Assembly (NCBI GenBank): GCA_024277855.1
Contig: JAJRUJ010000045.1
Coordinates: 1-33,082, forward strand
Source: Candidatus Zixiibacteriota bacterium
GTDB taxonomy: Bacteria > Zixibacteria > MSB-5A5 > WJJR01 > JAJRUJ01
DNA: 33,082 nt
Direction of reading: 5' to 3'
Shown: positions 22,930 through 26,970 of the stretch, one piece after another
Layout of the letters: each line of letters begins with the position of its first letter
Numbering within the stretch: the first letter of the stretch is position 1
Notes under the pieces: model-generated
What the model was told of the DNA's origin: nothing
The model's input: only the letters and a program-made list of their open reading frames with translations
Databases searched by the model: none
Made by a program: the position numbers and the translations under genes

Positions 22930-23096
22930 TGAATTCTCTCGCCGAAGCGGCATAATTAACGGTTGTTAACATTCCGGCGACAGGTTGTTGCCTTGGCCGG
23001 CCTTGGTACCGGGCATACGGGGTTTTGCCTTGCTCGTCCGATAACAGAAAGCGTTATTGGTTTCAAAGACAGGAAAATTTCGGAGGAGGGTCCGCA

Positions 23097-23522
23097 ATGA
23101 AATATGAAATGAAGCGTGTTGGTATCTTTTCGGTTATCAAGATTTCGTTCATCCTTGGCGGCGCCGGGGGATTTCTGGCCGGCTTGATTGTCGCGATGTT
23201 GATGGCCTTTTTTGCTTCAGTTATTTCGCAGATGGGTATGCCCGGGGGCATGGGCGAATTTGACGGCATGGCCTCGGGAATGGGTTTTGCAATGGTCATC
23301 ATTCTCCCGTTGATGTACGGCTTCTTTGGCGCCGTCGGCGGAGCCATCTATGGGGCCATCGGGGGCGGCCTCTACAACCTGTCGGCTAAACTCATCGGCG
23401 GACTGGAATGGGAAATGGTCCCGGTCGGTGATGCTACGGTATCTCCATCGGTGCCCCCGGCCACGCCACCCGAGGCTCCTCCGGAACCACCGAAACGGAT
23501 ACCGCCTTCGATGTATGAATAG
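23097..23522 (+). CDS. DUF3566-like membrane protein
   Basis: A 141-residue membrane protein. The start MKRVGIFSVIKISFILG followed by GFLAGLIVAML fits the DUF3566 pattern, an N-terminal strand running into a first helix. A second helix near residues 60-80 contains Gly-rich GFFGAVGGAIYGAIGGGLYN. The tail is Pro-rich (VSPSVPPATPPEAPPEPPK) and probably disordered. The family's function is unknown. ATG 23097 is chosen because GGAGGAGGG lies upstream; an in-frame ATG at 23025 would add 24 non-conserved residues. It is divergent from the PDZ gene and convergent with the unknown gene at 23584. Confidence 0.78.
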   Translation: MKYEMKRVGIFSVIKISFILGGAGGFLAGLIVAMLMAFFASVISQMGMPGGMGEFDGMASGMGFAMVIILPLMYGFFGAVGGAIYGAIGGGLYNLSAKLIGGLEWEMVPVGDATVSPSVPPATPPEAPPEPPKRIPPSMYE

Positions 23523-23583: not shown

Positions 23584-24963
23584 TCAGGAGATGATCGCCA
23601 CCGTCGCGGCCTCGATTTCGTTGAAATACCGTCGACGGTTGAAAACAAATGTTCCCTTGCACTCGAGGATTTCCTGACGCAGCGCCAGTTTGACCGAATC
23701 GCTCGTCTCCGATTCAGTCCGGCGCAGGAGCAGACAGACAATCTCAAACAATTGAGCGGTGGTCAACAGGCAGATGCCGGCGGCCTCGGCGGTCTCGATT
23801 GCCTCGGCGGCAAACCACTCTTCCCGCAATGCCGGAGCCATCATATAATCGGCATTGGCGACCAAAATCCCTTTTGGCCTTTCACGCATCCGGCAGGCGT
23901 TGATTTTTTCAATAAACTCCACACACGTTTCCGCCGGCAATGGCCCCGTCGCCGTTCCTGCAACCTGACCGACGATATGCTTGACTTGCTTATCACGCAT
24001 ATACCATCCGAATTTTGCCCGCGCAATCTTCGGTGGCGGTTCGACAAAATAAAAACTCAGTAATTCCATCACGCGTCGGACCGGCGGCACCAACTCCTCC
24101 GGTGGCCGGTACAACAGGCCGCAAAATTCCTGACTCTGTTCGAGCGATTTGGTATGCGAGGCCCTGGCCCGGGTCAGGCGGGCGATCTCTTCATCAATTT
24201 GCGCAATGGACCGGCTGTTGGGGTCGGAGACGGTTAATTGATCGGTATACTGATCAGCCCAACCCGGCCGGTTCACGACCACCGGGCGTCCGCTTGACAA
24301 CTCTTCGAGTACGCCGACCAGTTTTCGCCCTTCGGCACGGTCGAGGAACCGGGGAATAAATACTATTTCACCGCCCTCGGCAAACGTCACCCGGGTAATA
24401 ATCGGTACCCCGCTGTGTCCGCTGGCGTGGGCCAGTTCAGTAACCGTCCCGTGAGAAATATTCGTGATACTCTGCCAGCTGTTGATCCGGACATTGGCAA
24501 ATGCCCGGGCAAATGGCCCCGCCTGATTGTGATATTCGATCGAGCGTTCGAGGATATAATTGACCGAATATTTTCCCAAAAATTCATTGAGCCAAAAAAA
24601 CGGCTCGACGACCGAGTCGGTAAAATGGCTGGTCCCGGCGATACTTTTCTTGCGGACCTGGATTATCGAATTCGGAAAATTGGCCCGTAAGACCAGTGTC
24701 CCGCCCGCGGCCAGAAATGTGTGGAGTTGTTTGATGACCGGTTTGACCAGGCCCAGGTAGCGCCGCAGGTCGTTTTCCACGACGGGGATAAATTCTTTGA
24801 TCCAGATTTCTTTGGTGTTGCGGCGCAACGAGTTTTTGACGGCGAAATTCAGCGGGTCCAAGAATACGTATTTGAAACCATGGAGGTCGGTCACCTCCGA
24901 TAAATCAACGGCAGGAAAATCGCCCGAACCAGGTCCCCAATGACAAAACAACGCGTTGGACAT
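23584..24963 (-). CDS. Uncharacterised protein with Rossmann-like and degenerate PD-(D/E)XK-like regions
   Basis: I do not recognise a named family for this 459-residue cytoplasmic protein. Residues 1-235 are alpha/beta with a KQLHTFLAAGGTLVLRA stretch typical of Rossmann or GATase-like folds. Residues about 250-282 form a coiled coil. Residues about 282-410 follow the plan of a widespread nuclease-like domain: FCGLLY then LVPPVRRVMELLSF, then strands, KGILVAN (364-370) and CLLTTAQLFEIV (398-409). In the family as I recall it, the middle strand carries an E-V-K-G core; here it reads GQVAG (332-336), so Glu and Lys are lost, and I see no obvious catalytic Asp before it. A ribosome site GGGAG precedes ATG 24963. 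It may be a non-catalytic DNA- or ligand-binding protein. Confidence 0.75.
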   Translation of the reverse strand: MSNALFCHWGPGSGDFPAVDLSEVTDLHGFKYVFLDPLNFAVKNSLRRNTKEIWIKEFIPVVENDLRRYLGLVKPVIKQLHTFLAAGGTLVLRANFPNSIIQVRKKSIAGTSHFTDSVVEPFFWLNEFLGKYSVNYILERSIEYHNQAGPFARAFANVRINSWQSITNISHGTVTELAHASGHSGVPIITRVTFAEGGEIVFIPRFLDRAEGRKLVGVLEELSSGRPVVVNRPGWADQYTDQLTVSDPNSRSIAQIDEEIARLTRARASHTKSLEQSQEFCGLLYRPPEELVPPVRRVMELLSFYFVEPPPKIARAKFGWYMRDKQVKHIVGQVAGTATGPLPAETCVEFIEKINACRMRERPKGILVANADYMMAPALREEWFAAEAIETAEAAGICLLTTAQLFEIVCLLLRRTESETSDSVKLALRQEILECKGTFVFNRRRYFNEIEAATVAIIS

Positions 24964-25245: not shown

Positions 25246-26970
25246 ATGAATGACAAGCCGAAACCAGATAGTGAAGCCGCCGCTCCGCCGGCCGAAGCAG
25301 TCGATTTTGTGCGGGCGATTGTCGCCGAAGATTTGAAAAACAATAAATTTGTCGGCCGGGTCCACACCCGGTTTCCTCCTGAACCGAATGGGCATCTCCA
25401 CATCGGGCATGCCAAGGCGATTTATCTGAATTATCTCATCGCCGTTGAAAATGATGGACTTTTCAATCTGCGTTTTGACGATACCAACCCGACTAAAGAG
25501 GAAACGCAGTTCGCCGACGCGATCCAGAAGGATATCCGTTGGCTGGGTGTCGATTGGGCAGACCGTCTCTTTTGGGCTTCGGACTATTTTGAGACGCTCT
25601 ATGAATACGCCGTCAAATTGATCAAAGACGGCAAAGCATATGTCGACGACCTCTCGGCCGAAGAAATCCGCGAATATCGCGGCACACTCACCGAACCGGG
25701 AAAGAACAGCCCATACCGTGAGCGAAGCGTCGAGGAAAATCTCGACTTGTTTGCCCGGATGCGCAAGGGTGAGTTTCCCGACGGCAGTAAAGTTTTGCGC
25801 GCGAAGATCGACATGGCCTCGGGTAATCTGAATATGCGCGATCCGGTGATGTACCGGATTATGCACGCGAAACATCACCGGACCGGCGATGCCTGGTGTA
25901 TCTACCCGATGTATGACTGGGCGCACGGGCAGTCCGATTCGATTGAGGGGATCACCCATTCAAATTGCAGTCTCGAATTTGAGGATCACCGTCCGCTCTA
26001 CGACTGGTTTCTCGACCAACTCGGCATTCACCACCCGAGGCAGACCGAGTTCGCGCGGCTCAATCTCAATTATACGATCATGAGCAAGCGCAAACTGCGG
26101 CGGCTGGTCGAGGAGGGTTATGTCCGCGGTTGGGACGATCCCCGCCTGCCCACTCTTTCCGGTCTGCGGCGGCGCGGGTATTCACCGGAATCAATCCGTA
26201 ATTTCTGTGAACGCGTCGGGGTGGCCAAACGCAACAGCGTCGTCGATATTGCACTTTTGGAGCACACTCTGCGCGAGGATTTGAATAAGCACTCCGCCCG
26301 CGTGATGGCCGTACTGCGTCCGCTCAAGGTCATTATCGACAACTATCCCGAGGGGCAGGTCGAACAGTTGGATGCCGTTAACAATCCGGAGGATCCGTCT
26401 GCCGGGACACGCAAAGTCCCTTTCTCGCGCGAGCTGTATATTGAACGGGATGATTTTCGCGAAGATCCCCCCAAGAAATTTTTCCGCCTCGCCCCGGGTC
26501 GGGAAGTTCGCTTGCGCTATGCCTATTTCATCACCTGCGAAGCTGTGGTCAAAGACGAGCAAACCGGTGAGATCACCGCACTGCACTGCAGCTATGACCC
26601 GGCGACAAAAGGCGGCGACTCGCCCGACGGCCGTAAAGTTAAGGCCACCCTCCATTGGGTTTCGGCCGAACATGCGCTGGACGCCGAAGTACGACTGTAT
26701 GATAAACTGTTTATCAAAGAGGACCCCGACGACGTCCCGGAAGGTCAGGATTTTATCGCGAATCTCAATCCGGATTCGCTGAGTGTCCTCACTTCGGGTA
26801 AAATTGAGCCGAGTGTCAAAGGCGCCGCGCCCGGAAATCGTTACCAGTTTGAGCGGCAGGGATATTTTTGTGTCGATCCCGATTCGACCGAAAACGCGTT
26901 GGTTTTCAACCGTACCGTAGGATTGCGGGACACTTGGGCGAAGATCCAAAAACAACAGAAAAGGAAATAA
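25246..26970 (+). CDS. glnS: Glutaminyl-tRNA synthetase
   Basis: A 574-residue class I synthetase that attaches glutamine to tRNA-Gln. HIGH is at residues 52-55 ([15 protein letters not shown]), and the KMSKS-type motif is IMSKRKL near residues 278-284. The start aligns well with known GlnRS ([21 protein letters not shown]), and the C-terminal beta-barrel domain ends with [14 protein letters not shown] as in Escherichia coli. Length is normal. Its presence means Gln-tRNA need not be made by the GatCAB transamidation route in this organism, which is inference. The ribosome site before ATG 25246 is weak. A hairpin with T-run lies in the leader. Confidence 0.97.

Follow-up and report, generated by a model that had tools for sequence, protein, structure and literature searches.

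What might a protein do if its C-terminal domain is built like a nuclease and lacks the residues that cut? The question is raised by an open reading frame of 459 codons at 23,584–24,963 (minus strand, as are all features of this gene given below) of the window, the stretch of 33,082 nucleotides of Candidatus Zixiibacteriota DNA analyzed here. The earlier note, made from the sequence, had proposed a Rossmann-like N-terminal half, a coiled coil and a dead nuclease-like module; the motifs that it quoted are present in the ORF, with GQVAG at residues 332–336. The ORF starts with ATG, just downstream of a putative Shine-Dalgarno sequence (agggag, judged by eye), and is a real gene, since homologs with 28–36% identity to its product over nearly the full length are found in other genomes. 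One flank is occupied by a gene for a tRNA synthetase of the glutaminyl/glutamyl type, encoded on the opposite strand (25,246–26,970; Pfam tRNA-synt_1c). On the other flank, by the 3′ end of the gene, lies a small glycine-rich ORF, also on the opposite strand (23,025–23,522), which from 23,103 on matches DUF3566 (E 6.7e-6, above the Pfam cut-off).

Two models whose alignments had no sequence in common were used for structural comparison. The first AlphaFold2 model was based on a ten-sequence alignment (mean pLDDT 85.6; pTM 0.49, at which the orientation of the domains is uncertain), and the second on 15 sequences drawn exclusively from another lineage that carries the same protein (lineage B, described below; pLDDT 88.7, pTM 0.59). 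In the first model, residues 277–450 (23,614–24,135) form a restriction-endonuclease (REase)-like domain that aligns in VIA-align with AF1548 (PDB: 1y88; Z 11.3, rmsd 2.7 over 114), FokI (2fok; Z 11.1, 3.1 over 141) and N.BspD6I (2ewf; Z 11.0, 3.5 over 160). The second model aligns with FokI (1fok; Z 13.7, 5.0 over 149), with 2p14 (Z 12.1, 2.7 over 143) and with EndoMS (5gke; Z 9.5, 2.5 over 99). A best Z of 7–8 is typical of models without a clear match, and both models exceed it; Z values of 9–14 are a match of fold and no proof of function. The core fold of the PD-(D/E)XK superfamily is present in both models, which bears out the suspected nuclease-like domain, and the coiled coil proposed ahead of it appears as a helical linker of residues 234–284 (24,112–24,264), with predicted helices at 234–246 and 248–284 (DSSP of the model). 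Foldseek alone ranked GH42 beta-galactosidases at the top, via a shared domain resembling class I glutamine amidotransferases (GATases), with query TM-scores of 0.28 or less; it also returned MspJI (4f0p) at E 0.0078. A viral library yielded weak restriction-endonuclease rows. When PDB sequences were searched with both profiles, only weak rows came back (best E 0.035 and 0.29), with many coiled coils among them.

Alike in fold to the FokI cleavage domain, the BspD6I subunits and AF1548 (Z 11.0–13.7), the window protein has no sequence match to them in the PDB and differs from them in lacking the catalytic D…(D/E)-x-K of the superfamily. In the joint alignment, the D, E and K columns are occupied by G319 (24,007–24,009, with the predicted strand 320–323 following next), Q333 and A335. 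The tripeptide Q333-V334-A335 (23,959–23,967) lies in the predicted strand 330–337, opposite the acidic motif that distant relatives keep, and a separate profile alignment likewise places GQVAG opposite GEAEG. When four registers around Q333 were searched for [DE]-x-[KRE], none of the 20 Zixibacterial rows and none of the 31 lineage-B rows contained it. A register-free search of the strand region yielded stray [DE]-x-K motifs in 2/20 and 1/31 dead rows, as against all five of the relatives; the stray motifs stand near the end of the stretch and read ENK in two near-copies and EPK in L106. Among the 20 rows, the E column is R in five, M in five, Q in three, D in two and K, E, A, S or L in one each, and the K column is A in 13, V in three and Y, I, T or M in one each. 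Homologs had been expected to share Q-V-A, and they do not: what is conserved across the family is the loss of the motif, not Q-V-A itself. The remark that no clear Asp precedes the motif holds for the window protein with its G319 and fails for the family, in which the Asp column is D in seven and E in five of the 20 Zixibacterial rows; it is D in 17 of the 31 lineage-B rows. One member, L016, has kept the Asp and the Glu and lacks the Lys, which suggests stepwise decay, and given this protein and the rows that retain the Asp, single members may have weak activity. Of the fold itself and the loss of its catalytic residues we are nearly certain.

In PD-(D/E)XK enzymes, catalytic residues can move, and the C-terminal module of this family has an acid in many rows at columns 355 (15/20 Zixibacterial and 31/31 lineage-B rows) and 338 (16/20 and 27/31), as might be expected of a nuclease whose active site has moved elsewhere. 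The window protein, however, has N355 and A338, and no column of the module (residues 282–439) is acidic in at least 90% of rows of both dead groups, so that no conserved acid replaces the motif elsewhere; we hold a relocated site to be very improbable. The only charged columns of the module that reach 90% in both groups are K364 and R380.

The five relatives that keep an acidic motif have the same three-part layout in the sequence alignment. The motif reads E-I-K in L039, which belongs to the phylum of the window genome, E-V-K in L065 and E-A-E-G-K in L066, both from genomes outside the phylum, E-A-E-G-K in L071, from Enterobacter plasmids, and E-V-E-G-R in L075. For L066, L071 and L075, two overlapping readings exist (E-A-E or E-G-K; E-V-E or E-G-R) and the register is ambiguous; the motif occupies the register of Q333 in four of the five relatives, the next one in three and the last one in L065, where it is shifted by a gap. 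In a tree computed without five rows (two partial, one distant and two cut by contig ends), each dead group forms one clade (support 100/99 and 99/98), and for the position of the motif-bearing rows, which have long branches, support is 62/8 and the program warns of false joins.

The N-terminal domain, residues 1–227 (24,283–24,963), has a GATase-like α/β fold. In the first model it aligns with the ThuA-like protein 1t0b (Z 10.2, rmsd 3.3 over 168) and with IFT52 (5fms; Z 10.1, 3.5 over 171) in VIA-align, as well as with 3rht (Z 9.5) and the GH42 protein 5xb7 (Z 11.0); the N-terminal half of the lineage-B model aligns with 1t0b at Z 10.6 (3.6 over 175). The half described as Rossmann-like is thus of the ThuA/GATase1-like kind. 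Within it, a set of six residues spanning 24,331–24,939 is conserved in both dead groups, with charged columns counted by class, acid or basic. W9, D36, E63 and R93 are found in every row of both groups (18/18 Zixibacterial, 31/31 lineage B), with Asp in place of E63 in lineage B and Lys for R93 in a single row; K74 (K or R) is kept in 18/18 and 28/31 rows, and E211 in 18/18 and 30/31. The motif-bearing relatives differ: except for W9 and D36 in L039 (each 1/5), they are without W9, D36, E63 (0/4), K74 and R93 (each 0/5), and E211 occurs in two of four. W235 is common to both dead groups and all motif-bearing relatives. W9, D36 and R93 are located at or just past the ends of the predicted strands 4–7, 32–35 and 89–93, which, going by the sequence and the predicted secondary structure, would put them at the edge where such folds usually hold their ligand. 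The conserved set is best regarded as a probable working site, either a ligand pocket or a partner surface.

Of the 33 invariant columns in alignment A1, 28 fall within residues 6–235, and constraint seems to have left the nuclease centre for the N-domain. This concentration bears on another idea, a nucleoid protein or DNA-binding regulator whose dead domain has retained DNA binding. In its favor are the fold, which is that of DNA-cutting enzymes, and the conserved basic residues R380 and K364. Both residues, however, are also present in most or all of the motif-keeping relatives and may be structural; with the invariant columns clustered in the N-domain and the lineage-B gene adjoining mraY, we consider a DNA-binding role unlikely.

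An alternative that fits the strict conservation of the N-domain set is that this domain is an active amidotransferase or hydrolase and the C-domain a mere scaffold. Class I glutamine-amidotransferase-like and ThuA-like proteins are among its closest folds, together with the N-domain of IFT52 (Z about 9.4–10.6). GatD/MurT, described as amidating lipid II in Staphylococcus aureus, would be a precedent for the action of a GATase-type protein on a precursor of peptidoglycan. Against an active enzyme, IFT52 and the GH42 domain are non-catalytic relatives of the GATase-like fold. Moreover, unlike GatD/MurT and the ThuA/GATase-like proteins, the family described here has no column that is Cys or His in at least 90% of rows of both dead groups; the class I GATase triad (Cys-His-Glu) is thus missing and amidotransferase chemistry is unlikely. 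From the ThuA/GATase-like proteins it also differs in the fusion of the domain to a coil and an REase-like domain. We give an active enzyme a rather small chance, somewhat below that of a DNA-binding role.

A profile built from ten members found the family in 17 of the 132 genomes of the phylum, the window's genome included; an 18th matching genome (G106) holds only the distant outgroup L039 and was left out, and among the 17, one (G119) contains pieces only and another (G071) a copy truncated where the contig stops. An earlier protein search among 98 relatives had matched ten genomes, own included. Searching genome contigs with the single window protein gave no match, and an alignment-based contig search returned nine loci, whose records bear the names Zixiibacteriota, GN15 or "bacterium" in their titles. 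The 20 Zixibacterial rows do not count as independent: two of them are partial, L017 and L018 are 90% and L012 and L048 88% identical, and the second copy of L036 and L045 are near-copies from one genome. Adjacent genes are common within Zixibacterial families (for instance among the neighbors in f19), and no neighbor gene was common across families in the stretches compared. In two genomes, G120 and G124, tandem copies are present (L051, 3290–4705 and 4869–6362; L036, 566–1972 and 2120–3376), perhaps forming hetero-pairs.

Both halves of the protein are under purifying selection in two close pairs, on which all dN/dS values rest, two further pairs being saturated and unusable. With NG86, the N-domain gives 0.20 and 0.26 and the C-domain 0.13 and 0.37; with YN00, the corresponding values are 0.31 and 0.30, and 0.25 and 0.44. 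A functionless, decaying remnant of a mobile nuclease gene might also be patchily distributed in the phylum, leave fragments such as L011 (G071:C2, 8892–9251), a C-terminal piece with an in-frame stop in a genome that has the longer, contig-cut copy too, and have a motif-bearing relative near an integrase on plasmids. Against this, C-domain dN/dS is 0.13–0.44 in the two usable pairs, long frames are open in two groups and the gene keeps a stable place before mraY, and we consider decay exceedingly improbable.

The second group with the same dead protein is new here. A combined profile matched 63 of the 197 genomes around G231, distributed over families f119 (30 genomes), f233 (27), f236 (4) and f238 (2); these genomes are related to that of the window at no taxonomic rank below domain. 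These four families were pooled as lineage B since they are listed as relatives of G231, on the assumption of a single phylum, which we guess to be Bipolaricaulota. Aligned by hhalign, the lineage-B profile (15 members) and the Zixibacterial profile match over 408 columns with a probability of 99.85%.

In lineage B, the gene has a recurrent neighbor. Of the 63 matching genomes, 33 were examined, and one of them (G521) ends at a contig edge; mraY lies directly downstream on the same strand in 30 of the 32 testable genomes, with a gap of about −18 to +95 bases (gene start extrapolated from the alignment). In two genomes (G541 and G503) mraY itself is cut by the contig end, and no mraY was found beside the gene in G505 and G499, the two f236 genomes examined. 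In G369, outside the 33, the coordinates also place gene and mraY as a pair. The adjacent copy is the genome's best MraY match in all nine genomes in which this was compared (G231, G369, G495, G500, G509, G527, G533, G535 and G548), four of which have one further MraY match at E 3.7e-7 or worse; in the one genome checked, the neighbor at locus L117 matches Pfam Glycos_transf_4 and MraY_sig1. The Zixibacterial gene stretches examined, the window included, contain no mraY, and in nine Zixibacterial genomes the gene and the best mraY match are located on different contigs (mraY on C126 in the window's genome), so that an envelope role may not extend to the window protein. The link to mraY could also be partly inherited gene order.

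A C-terminal fold without cutting residues, together with the place directly upstream of a cell-wall gene in lineage B, makes a binding or regulatory role of the protein, as the earlier note had suggested, more likely than that of a nuclease. On balance, we favor as the more probable explanation a pseudo-nuclease that joins a dead REase-like module to an N-domain that binds a ligand or partner; the target in lineage B would most likely be lipid I synthesis, as the gene stands directly before the genome's mraY. The C-domain, having lost its catalytic acid and lysine, would have been kept for binding or oligomerization on the long coil, and coil and dead domain would pair the protein with itself or with its target. 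The most likely mechanism would be non-nucleolytic: either a partner or some small anionic ligand would be bound by the N-domain. From the computed fold, motif loss, conservation and adjacency we infer the rest: that a ligand is bound, that the protein pairs, and whatever role it has in the envelope, above all in Zixibacteria. A non-nucleolytic binding role is in our judgement quite likely; for the link to the envelope in lineage B, most likely through the synthesis of peptidoglycan precursors, the chances appear even; that the protein has the same role in Zixibacteria is doubtful. A more specific hypothesis is that the protein is a fixed partner of MraY that would sense UDP-MurNAc-peptide, UMP or undecaprenyl phosphate as a peptidoglycan-precursor ligand in its N-terminal pocket and govern the synthesis of lipid I, the window protein being a free-standing version of the sensor; we offer it as a speculation of low probability.

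Lipid I synthesis is a step targeted by antibiotics. If the link to mraY is functional, it would point to an undescribed factor of cell-wall control or assembly. Dead nuclease folds retained as binding modules are known already; here such a fold is common in one genome group beside the lipid I synthesis gene, and the family would exemplify a shift of constraint, away from a nuclease centre near the C-terminus and onto a new site near the N-terminus. Among Wolbachia Cif proteins, CidB and CinB have PD-(D/E)xK folds without catalytic residues (PMC12687446); they resemble our family in this feature, and they are symbiont factors of a different architecture.

Nothing in curated collections covers the protein. 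The best scores of the window protein are E 0.25 in Pfam and 0.038 in NCBIfam, with nothing above the curated cut-offs; ten members searched against Pfam reached E 0.0036 at best (Methyltransf_23, one member), with Mrr_cat at 0.089 in one, and the lineage-B member and the relatives have no curated family either. PHROGs gave no clear match, and PADLOC, searched up to E 1 with the window protein, four further members of the family and L039, gave none. In the open literature, as represented by titles and the openings of abstracts, with most subscription papers outside it, no paper describing the protein was found.

The motif-bearing relative on Enterobacter plasmids (seven records; L071, 7998–9338) is labelled hypothetical, and in the one record examined it adjoins IS elements and an integrase gene. 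A CARF3 model gives a weak match to the coil/nuclease part of this relative (E 0.001). No match was found to this gene by distant blastn in E. coli genomes, to L039 and L065 among plasmids, or to L039 in viral contigs. In G293, the E-V-K relative is followed, two ORFs downstream, by a TIR-domain ORF (L073, 8308–8799; Pfam TIR_2, E 5.2e-17; ThsB-like in PADLOC). A relative in G280 (L074, 7076–8959; L080) has a long low-complexity linker and reads LAVTK where E-x-K is absent, perhaps an independent loss of the motif.

At L117 (2601–13,337), the mraY pair of lineage B is surrounded, in order, by genes for an ECF-type sigma factor, a CBM48-type protein and a PKD/PEGA protein, then by the pair itself, a carbon-nitrogen hydrolase, a CRP-like regulator, one other protein and a response regulator. 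Genes related to this neighborhood recur in 10–15 of the 20 loci compared, where the neighbor families are single-linkage ORF clusters that include some shadow frames.
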